The notes beneath the pieces were generated by a model. The model had not been told where the DNA came from, did not search any database, and saw only the letters and a list, made by a program, of their open reading frames with translations. From assembly GCF_036013955.1 (NCBI RefSeq), contig NZ_CP107903.1, forward strand, positions 248,001-312,000: 64,000 nucleotides of DNA. The letters run 5' to 3'. Below are positions 51,055 through 60,476 of this stretch, piece by piece. Position numbers and translations under genes: made by a program. The stretch comes from Streptomyces sp. NBC_00459 (GTDB lineage Bacteria > Actinomycetota > Actinomycetes > Streptomycetales > Streptomycetaceae). How positions within the stretch are numbered: position 1 is the stretch's first letter; each line of letters starts with the position of its first letter.

Positions 51055-51258
51055 GTGGAGGCCCCGCCCGCCTATGCACCCGACTTGCACCCTCAGCAGG
51101 GCATTTGGTCGCTGGTTGGACGCAACCTCGGCAACCTTGCCGCAGCTGACCTCGCCCAGATCACCGGGGCTGTGAAGCGCAGGCTCAAGCAGATCCAGTC
51201 CCGGCCCGATCTGGTCGACGGCTGTCTGGCGGGCACTGGCCTGATGATGGGCGGCTGA
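51055..51258 (+). pseudogene. IS630-family transposase, C-terminal fragment
   Basis: About 63 residues, AYAPDLHPQQGIWSLVGRNL then GNLAAADLAQITGAVKRRLK to LVDGCLAGTGLMMGG. It matches the end of the intact IS630 transposase at 57593-58650 (AYAPDLNAQEGIWSLVKRDI). The catalytic glutamate position is Q here (PQQGIW against AQEGIW). The 5' part was removed where the defective IS3 element joins at 51053. Confidence 0.85.
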
Positions 51259-51336
51259 CCGACCTGCCCCGTCCTGTCCGTGAGGTGAGGGGGTATTCGA
51301 TGGCAGACCAAGCCTCCCGGCTGACAGGCTTTGCCC

Positions 51337-52188
51337 ATGAGTCTCCAGCCCAACGACGTATCCGACCCTTCCTGGCTGGGCAAGCCGATTGACGCTCGCC
51401 CACTGTTCGGGTCAGAGCTGGCGTCGCTCCTCGACGTGCTAGGCGGTCTGCGGCGCAGTGAGTGGAGCAGAGCTGCGGTCCCAGGCTGGACCGTGCAGGA
51501 TCTTGCCTCCCACATCCTCGGCGACTACCACGGCCGCCTCGGCTGGAGCGCAGAGAGCCACCAGCGCGCCATGGCCTTTGGGGAGACGCTGGAAGCGTTC
51601 ATCCACCGGGTCAACCAAGAATGGATCGACCTCCACGCCGATCACAGCCCCGCCGAGATCATCGAGGCCCTGGAACTGTCCGGGACCCAGGTCGCCCGTC
51701 AATTCGAGGGTGACGACCTCGACGCAACGGGTCTAGGAGTGTCCTGGGCAGGGGCCGACCCGGCACCCAAGTGGCTGGACATCGCCCGGGAGTTCACCGA
51801 GTACTGGACCCACCGCCAGCAGATCCGCCACGCCACCGGCCGGGACACCGATCCGGAGCCCAACGCTCTGTCCACGGTCCTGGACACCTTCATGAGGGCC
51901 TTGCCTCACACTCTGCGTGACACTCCCGCACCCGCCGGGACACAACTCCAGGTGGTCATCGATGAGCCAGCCGCCGGCACCTGGACCGTGACCGCCACCG
52001 CGGACCGCTGGTCACTGGCCGCAGCACCCAGCGGTCGGCCAACCGCATCAGTGGGACTGGACCCAGAGACCGCCTGGCGACTCTGCACCCGCGGCATTGA
52101 TCCTGGCACTGCCCTCGCCCGGGCCCGCATCAGCGGAGACCGCCAGATCGCCGAAGCCGCCTGCCAGATCGTGTCCATCGTCTACTGA
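51337..52188 (+). CDS. DinB/maleylpyruvate-isomerase-like protein (mycothiol-dependent type)
   Basis: A 283-aa protein of the MDMPI/DinB superfamily. The N-terminal four-helix part contains VPGWTVQDLASHILGDYHGR (first metal-ligand histidine region) near residue 52 and FTEYWTHRQQIRHATG near 158 (later histidine). The C-terminal part, VDEPAAGTWTVTATADRWSL then SVGLDPETAWRLCTRGID, is the SCP2-like MDMPI_C domain. Such proteins use mycothiol as cofactor in isomerase or transferase reactions. The gene lies between an IS630 3' fragment and an IS630-type inverted-repeat end, so it could be transposon cargo. ATG 51337 chosen; a TTG six bases earlier is less likely. Confidence 0.8.
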   Translation: MSLQPNDVSDPSWLGKPIDARPLFGSELASLLDVLGGLRRSEWSRAAVPGWTVQDLASHILGDYHGRLGWSAESHQRAMAFGETLEAFIHRVNQEWIDLHADHSPAEIIEALELSGTQVARQFEGDDLDATGLGVSWAGADPAPKWLDIAREFTEYWTHRQQIRHATGRDTDPEPNALSTVLDTFMRALPHTLRDTPAPAGTQLQVVIDEPAAGTWTVTATADRWSLAAAPSGRPTASVGLDPETAWRLCTRGIDPGTALARARISGDRQIAEAACQIVSIVY

Positions 52189-52539
52189 TGGACGCTGCGC
52201 GTCGAGGTACATCGCCCTGGTGTGACGGCACCTCTCATAGACGGCAGACCGACATCACGCATTCCAGTTCAATAGCCCAGCTGACGGCCCCGCGGGGCCG
52301 GATCACAGTCGAGTTGCTCAAAGTAGTGGGCAACGATCTCGGTGCCGGGCAGCATTCGGGCGTGTCGCGCTGCCAACTCCGGCCGGGTTGCCCCTCAACG
52401 GGTGTCCGGGCGTCGGGGTACACCCGTATCTGCTCAGGACGGTACAACCGATGGTGTTCAGCTTGGCCGCGACGAGGGCACGGCGAAATCGGGACGCGCT
52501 TCGGGCGGGGGATGTGGAACACTTCGCCGGGTGATCGTC
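52189..52539. other. Intergenic interval containing an IS630-type end
   Basis: Contains the 24-bp inverted-repeat end described at 52249-52272. The rest shows no recognisable gene or promoter. Confidence 0.5.
52249..52272 (-). repeat. Single IS630-type terminal inverted repeat, followed by TA
   Basis: On the minus strand this reads TGAACTGGAATGCGTGATGT after a TA and one T. It agrees with the two ends of the 57001-58720 element at 20 or more of 24 positions, counting the shared TGTCGG inner end. The flanking TA is at 52273-52274. Its inward side faces the DinB-like gene and the IS630 fragment at 51055-51258. Confidence 0.75.
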
Positions 52540-54291: not shown

Positions 54292-55621
54292 TGAACCGCT
54301 CCGGGTTCGATAGGGACTCGATCATTTGAGAGGATCGAGTCATGGCACGCCCTTCCCCTTACCCCCTTGAGCTGCGCAAACGTGCGGTCCGCATGGTCGC
54401 CGAGGTGCGGCCCGAGTACGACACCGAGTGGTCCGCGATGAAGGCGGTCGCCGCCAAGCTGGGGATCGGGACGACCGAGACGCTGCGCAAGTGGGTCCGC
54501 CAGGACCAGATCGACAACGGAGCCCGGCCGGGGACCACGACAGAGGAGTCCGCGCAGGTCAAGGCGATGAAGAAGGAAATCGCCGAACTCAGGCGGGCGA
54601 ACGAGATCTTGAAGGCGGCGGCGAGTTTCTTCGCGGCCGAGCTCGACCGGCCACACACGCGCTCGTAGCGTTCATCGACGAGCACAAGGGCCGCTTCGGC
54701 GGTGTCGAGCCGATCTGCCGCGTGCTCACCCAGCACGGCTGCAAGATCGCCCCTTCCACCTACTACGCCTGCAAGAAACGCCAGTTGGCGCCCTCGCCGC
54801 GGTCCGTGCGGGACGAGGGGCTCAAGGAACAGATCAAGGAGGTCTACGAGGCCAACTACCGTGTCTACGGTGCGAGGAAGGTCTGGCGCCAGCTGAACCG
54901 CCAGGGCCAGAAAGTGGCCCGCTGCACGGTCGAGCGTCTGATGCGCGAGATCGGCATCGCCGGCGCCGTCCGCGGCAAGAAGGTCATCACGACCATGCCG
55001 GACCCGGCGGCGGCCAGGGCCCCGGACCTGCTCGACCGCGAGTTCGTCGCACCGGCGCCGAACCGGACCTGGGTCGCCGACTTCACACACGTCGCCGCCT
55101 GGGCGGGCGTCGTCTATGTCGCCTTTATCGTGGACACCTTCTCCCGCCGCATCGTCGGCTGGTCCGCATCGCTGTCGAAACAGACCCAACTCGTCCTGGA
55201 CGCCCTGGACATGGGCCTGTGGCAGCGCGACCGAGACGGTCGTCCACCCATCCCCGGCGAGTTGGTGCACCACTCCGATGCCGGGTCGCAATACACATCA
55301 TTTCGCCTCGCCGAACACCTGGACTCGGTCCGGATCGCGGCCTCGATCGGGTCGGTTGGCGACGCTTACGACAACGCGCTCATGGAGTCGACGATCGGCC
55401 TGTTCAAGACCGAGGTCATAAAGCCGCAGCGGCCGTGGAAGACGCTGTCGCACGTCGAGCTCGCCACTGCCGAGTGGGTCGACTGGTACAACCACCGCCG
55501 ACTCCACGGTGAGATCGGGCACATCCCACCCGTCGAATACGAAGCCAACTTCTACCGAGCAACCACGAATCTCCAGGTCACAGCCAACATCTGAGATCTC
55601 TATCGAACCCGGAACGGTTCA
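54292..55621 (+). mobile_element. Complete IS3-family insertion sequence, 1330 bp, AAG target duplication
   Basis: Terminal inverted repeats start TGAACCGCTCCGGGTTCGAT at 54292 and, on the complement, TGAACCGTTCCGGGTTCGAT from 55621. They are flanked by direct AAG repeats at 54289-54291 and 55622-55624. It holds the two transposase frames listed next. The intact ends, matched target duplication and open frames indicate recent insertion and possible activity. Confidence 0.92.
54342..55594 (+). CDS. IS3-family transposase, OrfA and OrfB
   Basis: OrfA (54342-54668, 108 aa) has the helix-turn-helix AMKAVAAKLGIGTTETLRKW and a C-terminal heptad region KAMKKEIAELRRANEILKAA. OrfB (about 54665-55594) starts AFIDEHKGRFGGVEPICRVL and carries the DDE triad: D in TWVADFTHV, D in VHHSDAGSQYTSF and E in NALMESTIGLFK, ending in the W-x-x-x-N-x-R-R-L-H block WYNHRRLHGEIG. 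The overlap fits programmed -1 frameshifting to an OrfAB transposase. OrfB lacks a good independent start. Confidence 0.9.
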
Positions 55622-56834: not shown

Positions 56835-57088
56835 GCGGCGACTCCTGCTGAACTTGATGGGACGGCGCGGGTGAACTCACCTGTTGTCGGAGCTGATTGT
56901 CGCGCTCAGAGCGCGCAAGGCGTCGTCGTATTGGCGGCGGTCGAAATGGAACGGGCCGAACGCCGTATAGTCGCGTGTTGTGCGGTGGGGCTGCTCGATA
57001 CTGAACTTGAATGGGTGATGTCGGGGAACGGTGAGCGTGGTGGTACCCCGAGCCGTTCCACGTATGGCTGTTGCGTCAAGATGACCGC

Positions 57089-57583
57089 ATGACCGAGAGT
57101 CAAGCGGATCTGCTGGCGTTGCTGTGCGGGCTCGATGACCCGGAGTGGCTGGAGTGGCCGCAGCACTACAACCGTGCCGAGACTGCGGCCTTGTTCAGCG
57201 GTCTGGTGAGCCGGCTCGAAGGTGACTTCGCAGCTCGGTGCACGGCTGAGCACGACACTCAGGACTCCAGCGAGTACGGACGTGTCGTCGTGCCTGCGGA
57301 CGCGACCGTATGCGGAACCCGGATCGTGGTCTGTGTGAGCAAGTTCGGCTCATTGGCTCTGGTCTGCGCGGACAACCCGGGAGCCTTCTTCGGGACGGAG
57401 GATGCCCAGGCTGAGGGCGCACTGGACGGTGTCGACCTTGCCAAGGTGAATCGCGCGTTGGTCGAGCTCGGCTACGTGGTGGTCGCCGAGGAAGTGTTGG
57501 AGCTCGACTACGACGGGCCGAGCCGACTGCCCTCGCACGTTCAGCGGCCCAGCTGGTGGCATCGCTTCTTCGGCATCTTTTGA
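57089..57583 (+). CDS. Passenger gene inside the IS630-type element (unknown function)
   Basis: A 164-aa soluble acidic protein: MTESQADLLALLCGLDDPEW, LEWPQHYNRAETAALFSGLV, EYGRVVVPADATVCGTRIVV, CVSKFGSLALVCADNPGAFF, VNRALVELGYVVVAEEVLEL, ending WWHRFFGIF. No family recognised; the central strands and late helix recall small immunity or SUKH-like proteins, but this is a guess. It begins 64 bp inside the left inverted repeat and converges on the transposase with nine bases between stops, so it moves with the element. A TTG 18 bases upstream is an alternative start. Confidence 0.65.
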   Translation: MTESQADLLALLCGLDDPEWLEWPQHYNRAETAALFSGLVSRLEGDFAARCTAEHDTQDSSEYGRVVVPADATVCGTRIVVCVSKFGSLALVCADNPGAFFGTEDAQAEGALDGVDLAKVNRALVELGYVVVAEEVLELDYDGPSRLPSHVQRPSWWHRFFGIF

Positions 57584-57592
57584 CAATCACGA

Positions 57593-58650
57593 TCACAGGG
57601 TCAGGCCGGTGCCGGCGAGGCAGCCGTCGATTACCCCCGGTTGGTACTGCAACATCTTCAGCTTGCGCTTCACAGCGCGGGTGATCTGGCCGAGGTCCGC
57701 GGCGGCGAGGTTGCCGATGTCGCGTTTGACCAAGGACCAGATGCCCTCCTGCGCGTTGAGGTCGGGTGCGTAGGTTGGAAGCTGGAACACGGTGAGCCAA
57801 TCAGCGTTTGCCCCGAAGAACTCCCGCAGGGGCGCGACCAGGTGCATGCGTAGGTTGTCCCACACCAGAACGATCGGCCCGCCGAGCTGTGTACTGGCGC
57901 GGATGACCAGGTCACGATAGTCCTTCCAGCCGAAGCCCTTCGGCTCCTCCTTGCGGCCCCGGTACTCGCGGATCGCATAGATCAGACGGGACCGCTCACC
58001 AGCCTTGTAGCAGGTCATGCCCGCCATCGACACACGGCCCGATCCCCGTCCGCGCACCCGGATGACCGGAGTGCTGCCCTTGCGACCCCACGTCTTGGCG
58101 CGCGGCGGCGTCATCGACTGGCCGGCCTCGTCCTCGAAGACCACCCAGGCTCCGTTCGCCGCCGCGGTGCTCTTACCCGCGGCCACACCTCCCGCTTCCA
58201 CAGCTCCACCGCGTCGTCGTCACGCTCGATCGCGCGCCGGGCGGGCTGCTGCCACGACCAGCCATGGCGCCGCAGCAAACGCCATGTGCCCTCCACGGTG
58301 TACGAGACGTGGAACAGGCGGCCGATCATCGTCTTCACCCGAGCCAGGGTCCATCGCTGGTCGATCCACCCGTGTGCCAGAGGCCCACGCTCCAACTCGC
58401 GCTCCAACCTGGCCATTTGTGCGTCAGACAGCCGAGGTCGACCAGGTGACCCCTTGGACGCCACCCCGGCGTGGCCGCCCTCACGCCACTGGCGTCGCCA
58501 GCGTTCCACCGACCGCTCCGAGACCCGCAATGCGTCAGCGACCTCCCGGCTCTTCGTCCCACTCTCGAAGCAAGCCACAGCCTGGAGCCGGACCCGCTCC
58601 CGTGCGTCCCTCTCGGTGTCAGTCAAGCCGCCACCCTGCGGATATCTCAC
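57593..58650 (-). CDS. IS630-family transposase in two frames
   Basis: OrfA (58650-58111) has the helix-turn-helix REVADALRVSERSVERWRRQ and the winged region WIDQRWTLARVKTMIGRLFH. OrfB (about 58165-57593) has the catalytic triad: D in VVFEDEAGQSM, D in VLVWDNLRMHLV, E in APDLNAQEGIWSLVKRD, and the tail GCLAGTGLTL. OrfA drifts into APRRRTEPGWSSRTR where the frame changes. Many actinobacterial IS630 transposases are encoded this way, so a programmed frameshift is likely rather than decay. Confidence 0.88.
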
Positions 58651-58722
58651 CTCGCCAGGACTACCGAGGCCACCTGCGCGCTGTCCGGCGAACAGCCCGA
58701 CATCACCCGATCAAGTTCGGTA

Positions 58723-60476
58723 GCGTCCCAGGTAACGAGGTCGGCTGTCGCGGTGATGCGGGCAACGGGGTTGTCTCGAATCTCCTCCAACAGGCCGCGC
58801 TGGGCCGGGTCCGGCCAGACGAGCGAGCAACGAACACAGGCGTGTTCATGAACACAAGGGCTTGAAAAAACGCGCGAGCGCAGGTGCCGATGGACGCCTT
58901 GCGCTTCTCGAAGTGCGCAAGGAAAGCGTCCCATTCCTCCTCGGTGTGCGTCCGATATTCGTCGCTGGGTCGGGTGGTCCGGCGACGGCCGATGAAGGCG
59001 CGGTGGGCCTCGATCGTCTCGGCCGGGTAGATCGCCTTGTAACCCATCGTCGTATCAAGACTCTTATGCCCGCAGATCACTTGGGTGATAGGCGGTGGCA
59101 GGCCGTTCATGATGGCGTCGGTCACGAAGATCCTTCGGAAGTCGTGCAGGGAGAAGACGAGCGGTTCGCCGGCGGCATCAGTGAGGCCCGTGGCGGCCAG
59201 CGCGTTGATCAGAAACTTGCGGAGCGCGGTCGGGGTGAAAGCGCGGTGTTCGGTGCCGATATCGCGCTGGAACACCAGCGGCATCGGCGGGTTCCAGACC
59301 CGCTCGTGGACGTCGTAGGAGGTCACCGGCGGGATCACACCGCTGCTTCCTCGCAGGCGGCGGATGATGGTGGAAATGATGTCCGCCAGTTCCGGGCTGA
59401 CCAGCAGGAGCCGTTCGCTGTCGGTCTTGGACGGGGCGACCTGCAACAGGGGCACGACTTCGCCGGTGGTTGGGAGCCGGGTTTCGGTGATGCTGTGGTG
59501 GGTCAGCTCCAGGAGCTCCTCGTTGCGGATGCCAGTCAGGCGCAGGACCTCGATCGCGGCGAAGGCCCAGAAGGCTTCGCTCTCCTCGTAGGTGAGGTTC
59601 CGCCGCTGCCCGGTCAAGGTCTCCTCGGCCCAGGTCAAGTGCCCGGCGGCCTTGGGCGCAACGGTTCTGCGCAAGGCTCCGGCGGTGTCGGGGATCAGAT
59701 CCCCGGGCCTGGGTGTGCTCGGCCGCGGTGCGTCGCCTGCGGTCCACTGTGTCGCCCAGCACCGGCAGGGCGGGAAGCCATTCGCGAGTGCGCTGGTCCA
59801 TCCGGGCCTTGCGGTGTTTGCGGTCCTTGGCCTTGCTGATCTCCTCATTGCTGATCGGGCGGGGCACCACCCACGGTGCCCCGCGGGCTGGCTCTGCCGC
59901 AGCACAATGGGCGACGTCCAGATAGAAGGCGCGGACGCGAATGAGCTCGTCCTTGGCGTTCAGCCTGGGACTGACGACCTCGACGGCGGTGCCGTCTGGA
60001 CCGATCGTGCTGCGTCTCTTGGTGGCGATGTCTGTCGTCCAGGCTCGGGCCAGTGCCGATGGCAGCCTCAGGGAATCGATGCCCGGTGAAAGTGCTTCGA
60101 CCCTGGTCCAGAACAGCCCGGCCAGCGTGCGCGACACAGTGTCCAGGCTGGTGTAATCCAACGATGGCTGCCGTTCGTGCAGGTTATCCACGATCAGGTC
60201 GCGGACCGGGCGGCACCGGATCGGATAGCGATCCACGAGTTCTTCGATGCTCAGCCGGCCGACGGCGAGCCTGAACGCCCGGATTGTGGCCGGGGCGTAC
60301 TCAGGGACGAGATCCAGTGCCCGCGGCCGAAGGTAGAAGTCGACTTTGCGCTGACCCCCGCGGACATCGACTCGACGCATGGTGTCGACCCGTTCCACGC
60401 AGCCGCCGACGGTGATGTCCGTGACCGACCCGCCCTCGTGGCAGGCTCCACGGCCGACCTCTGCGGACCGTGTCAC
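58723..60476 (-). pseudogene. Tyrosine recombinase/integrase with two frameshifts
   Basis: The N-terminal half (frame ending near 59720) contains RALDLVPEYAPATIRAFRLA and PISNEEISKAKDRKHRKARM to LPVLGDTVDRRRRTAAEHT. The catalytic half continues in another frame: VLRLTGIRNEELLELTHHSI (first Arg), FSLHDFRRIFVTDAIMNGLP (H-x-x-R), ITQVICGHKSLDTTMGYKAI (GH and Tyr). A second frameshift near 58860 moves the tail CVHEHACVRCSLVWPDPAQR-GLLEEIRDN to a third frame. The IS630-type element is inserted just beyond (58721). The integrase is therefore inactive, although the catalytic residues are intact. Confidence 0.82.

Follow-up and report, generated by a model that had tools for sequence, protein, structure and literature searches.

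A family of IS630-type transposons in Streptomyces that probably captures, swaps and spreads host genes

Introduction

Canonical IS630 elements carry a transposase only and measure about 1.1 kb. The locus investigated here deviates from this usual form: In a stretch of 64,000 nucleotides from Streptomyces sp. NBC_00459 (termed the window in the following; coordinates refer to this whole stretch unless a locus is named), an IS630-type transposase and an unrelated 164-aa gene are enclosed by the same pair of terminal repeats, which results in a length of 1,720 bp including the additional gene. The question is therefore whether the 164-aa gene is a passenger of the element or simply its neighbor and, in the former case, by which route host genes might enter such an element and be replaced. 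The locus is read here with considerable confidence as a 1,720-bp IS630-family transposon that would move with its passenger as a unit, the passengers of its family having been acquired by putative capture and swap.

Structure and borders of the window element

The element extends from position 57001 to 58720 (1,720 bp) between two TA dinucleotides. Its features are as follows (strand after the coordinates; basis of the assignment in brackets):

56999..57000, no strand: target duplication, left copy, TA (flanks joined with one TA gap-free in 10/10 loci)
57001..57025, plus strand: left (distal) terminal inverted repeat (family end pattern)
57089..57583, plus strand: passenger gene, 164 aa (open reading frame, homologues, dN/dS)
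57593..58201, minus strand: transposase frame orfB, DDE domain (PF13358; second half of NF033545)
58111..58650, minus strand: transposase frame orfA, helix-turn-helix part (PF13592 and other HTH families; first half of NF033545)
58170..58178, minus strand: predicted frame-shift region, conserved GGTAARAG (motif in the rows with WxxxxWP)
58696..58720, minus strand: right terminal inverted repeat, 72 bp outside orfA (family end pattern)
58721..58722, no strand: target duplication, right copy, TA (flank comparison and empty-site alignments)

A preceding sequence-only reading of this DNA had described matching 24-bp ends with TA on each side, enclosing the transposase and an unrelated, convergent 164-aa gene whose stop is separated by nine bases from that of the transposase. 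Indeed, the two ends are identical at 21 of 24 positions with TA at both flanks, and the coordinates of the open reading frames leave exactly the nine bases 57584-57592 between the stops of the 164-aa gene and orfB; to be added is the division of the transposase into two overlapping frames, orfA and orfB. Within 5 mismatches of 20, the family end pattern occurs at three sites only in the 64-kb window: Two are the termini of the element, and the third belongs to a second family member (see below).

The window flanks represent two parts of one conserved gene, the homologue of which is annotated as hypothetical protein in S. cynarae. When the flanks were joined with a single TA, in the manner of the empty-site comparison proposed along with the earlier reading, the sequence aligned gap-free through the junction in 10/10 loci aligned (three further loci, whose matches end before the junction, are omitted from this count); the borders of the window element therefore hold. 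The relatives carried AG (8 loci), AA (1) or TG (1) at the target position, and TA in none of the ten. Inverted repeats and a TA target duplication, as in IS630 elements, are present in the window element, and its empty-site relatives are devoid of the TA. The right arm of these alignments is limited to about 32-41 nt by the change to an integrase gene at this point of the window. The clean empty site was obtained from the left-flank search, and a search with the right flank in plasmids led to the integrase gene and to no simple empty site. As a separate observation, a fusion at 58751-58764, about 40 nt to the right of the element, joins the interrupted gene to the 3' portion of the integrase gene; in the loci L171-L173, the two matching stretches are about 470 bp apart, and a small deletion or recombination beside the window element is therefore likely.

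Transposase frames

The orfB product matches PF13358 (73.0 bits versus a cut-off of 28.6) and is accordingly an IS630 DDE transposase. The profile NF033545, for which the whole-protein cut-off is 100 bits, is covered at positions 2-138 by orfA (92.9 bits) and at positions 139-297 by orfB (78.3 bits). In 32 of the 51 family elements collected (see below), exactly 90 nt separate the orfA stop from the preceding W codon of the WxxxxWP motif, whereas WxxxxWP is absent from the frame read in 17/51 and the orfA stop is positioned elsewhere in 2/51; beside this stop, GGTAARAG is conserved in the elements with the WxxxxWP motif. Since frameshifting is mentioned for the IS630 family (in a passage of PMC5009743), a programmed -1 frameshift that joins orfA and orfB is predicted as likely from these sequence features. 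The transposase made in this way would cut at both element ends.

Distribution of the family

The family end pattern TACTGAACTTGANNNNGTGATGTCGG (one mismatch allowed) was present in 84/295 genomes of the genus; a control with TACTGAACTTGANNNNGTGATGTCGG read backward in the same genomes gave 0 among the matches listed, so that the occurrence of the element ends is beyond chance. Among 149 genomes sampled across the phylum, the pattern was found in two, both of the same genus, and family elements reside on two Kitasatospora plasmids (L139, L149). Parts of the match lists yielded at least 51 distinct elements that have a transposase and the full pair of ends, the filter requiring the right end close to orfA; this end is located 71-73 bp from orfA in 49/51 elements. 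The distance between transposase and left end is bimodal: It amounts to 35-49 bp in 9/51 elements, the cargo-free relatives of 1,162-1,175 bp that represent the plain IS630 form, and to 511-1,856 bp in 42/51, among them the window element, with a gene inside. The ratio of 9:42 is a sample ratio and not the natural one, because one source search ordered its matches by their resemblance to the window element; four of the 51 (L006, L008, L022, L027) were retrieved with the window passenger as query and favor the cargo side by design.

Outside the 51 are 18 more loci with the transposase C-terminus present and without a left end in the stretch examined; six of these are shorter cuts of counted elements (L069, L085, L089, L090, L091, L093), and the others are truncated, decayed, or running off the stretch examined. 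Loci with a broken transposase or a single end (L039, L053, L117 and others) are likewise kept apart. Equal 2-bp flanks were found in 47/51 elements (40 TA, seven other), and because the seven other pairs differ from TA, these flanks constitute a target duplication and do not belong to the terminal repeat. Family-end pairs without a transposase, miniature-like in appearance, were encountered at L126 (61 bp), L127 (81 bp), L111 (409 bp) and L102 (562 bp); in genome G166, two family ends face each other at 61-81 bp.

The relatives include elements with the cargo of the window element (L034, L040) and elements with other cargo. The window element and its cargo recur, flanked by TA, as L034 on a plasmid of Streptomyces sp. 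NBC_00342 (86% over 1,724/1,724 bases) and, with the same borders, as L040 in another genome of the genus. Close relatives that end just after the transposase stop, which had been named as an observation that would speak against a passenger, do exist (9/51); the cargo is, however, not thereby placed outside the element, given the distal end in 42/51.

If the cargo-free relatives of 1,162-1,175 bp are taken as the measure, the element could be thought to stop at the transposase, with the 164-aa gene as a neighbor and the distal repeat as coincidental or derived from another copy. The gap-free empty site with the distal borders contradicts this explanation, as do the same borders and cargo in L034 and L040; moreover, a scan of the window slot for an inner end beside the transposase stop found none. 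Its probability is considered practically nil, and the interpretation as an IS630-type transposon with passenger is supported by both the empty-site alignments and the cargo-bearing relatives.

The second family member in the window is truncated, carries another passenger and occupies positions 51067-52274, i.e. two members with different cargo are located 4.7 kb apart:

51067..51249, plus strand: C-terminal transposase tail of the second member (orfB residues 142-202, 69% identity)
51337..52188, plus strand: passenger of the second member, 283-aa maleylpyruvate isomerase-type (similarity to the L146 passenger)
52249..52274, minus strand: left end of the second member, with TA (2 mismatches of 20)

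Its passenger is 87% identical (246/283) to that of L146, an element on a plasmid of Streptomyces sp. NBC_00080, the passenger of which matches TIGR03083 and PF11716. An IS3-like transposase frame (rve, HTH_21) was noticed at 54428-55594, between the two family members.

The passenger genes

The slot genes were chosen by a script (length, third-position G+C) and clustered by tblastn at E 1e-8. The 42 slots fell into 15 passenger clusters without detected similarity at this threshold; remote kinship between some of the clusters may exist. The largest clusters are the 164-aa family of the window (8 elements) and a 120-aa family (7), followed by SUKH-4 (6 elements; PF14435), DUF5959 (5) and a 137-aa family (3), three families of two elements and seven singletons; the singleton passengers include a methyltransferase, a GNAT and a mycothiol-dependent maleylpyruvate isomerase-type enzyme. 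The Pfam cut-off was reached by 5/15 clusters, and the slot genes occur in either orientation. Outside the 51, a SUKH-4 gene is present in L039; the slot of the decayed member L117 was observed to hold a P-loop gene matching AAA_33 and Zeta_toxin. Median dN/dS values ranged from 0.17 to 0.33 across the six clusters tested, which argues that the passengers are maintained as proteins (pairs with L022 are unreliable: the script took an inserted gene as the open reading frame, and the cluster range thereby reaches 1.0).

For the 164-aa passenger of the window, 352 homologues were obtained at E 0.001 (120 of them listed), and the median dN/dS of 0.23 (27 pairs of its cluster) indicates that its gene family is under purifying selection. 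A left end (at most 5 mismatches of 20) or a transposase tail (E of at most 0.01) was present in 15/28 genome loci of its homologues; the scanned stretch contained neither in the other 13/28, and stand-alone copies of the gene are therefore likely. A remnant of the same passenger together with a solo left end (2 mismatches) was seen in the window's own genome at G000:C1:2154063-2154233 (L002).

Purifying selection on the 164-aa gene, as well as its invariable position adjoining the transposase stop in its element type, would also suit an accessory transposition gene (regulator or helper) in place of a passenger. Against this role stand the 15 dissimilar families that occupy the slot in either direction, the 9/51 elements without any such gene, and the 13/28 homologue loci free of left end and transposase tail in the scanned stretch; an accessory function is therefore regarded as very improbable, and the gene is treated as a passenger in the following.

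As to the identity of this passenger, comparison with Pfam and NCBIfam profiles revealed nothing above cut-off, the PDB sequence search gave no relative at E 1, and the fold search against PDB and viral models no convincing match; the gene neighbors in seven homologue loci (L011, L015, L018, L020, L024, L026, L030), inspected by eye, comprised no recurrent partner. The name SUKH-4, borne by two of its homologues in UniRef (among the matches listed), was considered and is not borne out by Pfam, which finds no SUKH domain in the window passenger or in these two homologues.

The SUKH-4 (PF14435) cluster of 6 elements, among the larger ones, the second SUKH-4 gene in L039 and the two UniRef names (among the matches listed) could indicate that the family chiefly carries orphan immunity genes against the toxins of rival bacteria. 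However, the homologues so named are those in which Pfam shows no SUKH domain; 10 passengers (one each from 10/15 clusters) were negative in PADLOC at E 0.01; and a methyltransferase, a GNAT and an isomerase-type enzyme are found among the other passengers. A predominant role in immunity is thus unlikely.

Movement, exchange and capture of passengers

The window element is the sole full-length copy in its own genome, so that movement as a unit is seen in sister elements only. Two cargo-bearing elements of one genome are identical at 1,790/1,790 positions and flanked by TG and AT, respectively; for the AT-flanked copy, the uninterrupted site with AT in place was found in 7/7 loci aligned. In a second genome, two cargo-bearing elements agree at 1,729/1,733 positions, with AA and TA as flanks. 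Since identical or near-identical copies are present at two sites with different 2-bp duplications, cargo-bearing elements move as a unit; by sequence comparison, the window element likely moves its transposase and 164-aa passenger together in the same way.

Passengers are not strictly tied to one transposase lineage. On a transposase tree of 45 of the 51 elements (six were left out for odd transposase length), the passenger labels required at least 21 changes, the least possible number being 13 ('none' as one label); clusters 1 to 4 accounted for 3 to 4 changes each, 2 to 4 of them forced by starred branches. Shuffled labels gave a mean of 32.4 changes, and 0/200 shuffles were as low as 21. 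In consequence of this clustering, passengers are also inherited with the transposase, and much of their distribution is vertical.

Individual chimeras point to the place of exchange. In L115, the region 475-600, situated to the left of the transposase stop, shares 76-88% identity with L105 versus 28-44% with L145, while from 625 on the values are 88-96% to L145 and 68-96% to L105. The passenger side of L099 (400-475) is 84-100% identical to L038, followed by about 50 nt around the transposase stop that are unlike either parent; within the transposase gene, L038 remains closer in 4/5 steps over the first 145 nt or so from the stop, after which L034 takes over as the nearer parent. Because the nearer parent switches about 145 nt from the stop, the exchange in L099 is placed within the transposase 3' end. 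A third case, L045, displays a less sharp joint. Passengers are thus likely to be exchanged by homologous recombination through the transposase 3' end: The modules 'left end + cargo' and 'transposase + right end' would recombine at or through this region.

With regard to the origin of cargo, a decayed left end was detected beside the transposase stop in 5/42 slots (L061, L055, L110, L140, L145), with the working end 0.7-1.4 kb further out. These five inner ends outscore every control stretch of the same slots; those of L048 and L045 are also above the controls, and were left out of the 5/42 with their weak scores. The remaining 37/42 slots, including that of the window, exhibited no clear inner-end trace. 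The distal end is of the right-end sequence type in 9/42 cargo elements versus 0/9 cargo-free elements, which is suggestive of a supply by another, inverted copy. L118 represents a mirror case: Its right end is decayed, and a further end follows after 764 bp, with predicted frames in between (1473-2237); since 46 bp separate its left end from the transposase, it is assigned to the cargo-free elements. The stretch 1473-2237 of L118 may be cargo located on the side of the transposase opposite to the usual slot.

The combination of decayed inner and working outer ends agrees with a transposase that passes over a damaged end in favor of the following one. In this scenario, the left end first present at the transposase stop would decay; the transposase would then use the next family end outward, sometimes one shed by another copy; and the host gene between the transposase and the new outer end would become cargo.

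Passengers might instead have entered the slot by illegitimate recombination or insertion after the transposase stop. The 37/42 slots without clear inner end are in line with such an origin, and so is the position of the slot on the same side in all 42, even though the filter required the right end near orfA. On the other hand, the five decayed inner ends are situated where cargo-free elements end, right-type distal ends occur in 9/42 cargo versus 0/9 cargo-free elements, and L118 offers the mirror case with its decayed right end. Insertion into the slot is therefore a conceivable but rather doubtful route, and recruitment by end-skipping is retained as the preferred explanation.

Comparison with known mobile elements

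Insertion sequences with passenger genes are called transporter ISs in passages of PMC9330008 and PMC3129680, and the term is named for the IS1 and IS1595 families in a passage of PMC8496243. As in the elements described there, the ends of the window element enclose a gene unrelated to transposition; exchange of passengers is not mentioned in these passages (PMC9330008, PMC3129680, PMC8496243). In contrast to transporter ISs, the present family possesses an IS630 transposase and a 2-bp target duplication, and its slot takes at least 15 dissimilar passengers, with chimeras between related copies. Passenger exchange of such kind is not known from transporter ISs.

With canonical IS630 elements, the window element shares the transposase, the inverted ends and the TA target, and nine relatives keep the plain form; it differs by the additional 164-aa gene and its length of 1,720 bp. 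The mobilization of DNA between two family ends, as well as the nine distal ends that resemble right ends, are reminiscent of composite transposons, in which two full IS copies flank the cargo; the window element, however, has one transposase and no second full IS copy, the third family end in the window belonging to the truncated member 4.7 kb away. By analogy, and not by membership, the family resembles integron gene cassettes, as both combine a constant recombination module with a slot into which individual small genes are taken up; it differs from these in that one gene is carried at a time and exchange would proceed by homologous recombination and end-skipping.

Among the best literature matches, no IS630 group was found whose passengers can be exchanged, an absence of little weight with subscription journals mostly outside the scope of this search. 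Insertion sequences carrying passengers are known as such; what appears to be new, as far as this weak evidence of absence allows, is an IS630 group with an exchangeable slot.

Conclusions

According to the comparisons presented, this IS630 family likely captures, swaps and spreads host genes. More tentatively, and with slightly less than even confidence, it may be viewed as an integron-like gene sampler distributed across Streptomyces, in which 'transposase + right end' would be fixed, 'left end + single gene' would be exchanged and new genes would be recruited by end-skipping. Several 'hypothetical' Streptomyces genes are now placed as mobile passengers. Within one family, candidate stages in the transition from insertion sequence to gene-carrying transposon are displayed side by side (cargo-free elements, decayed inner with new outer ends, finished cargo elements, chimeras whose breakpoints could be mapped, and identical copies that have moved), a transition that is usually argued from finished cases. 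The family constitutes a directly testable system for gene capture and exchange.
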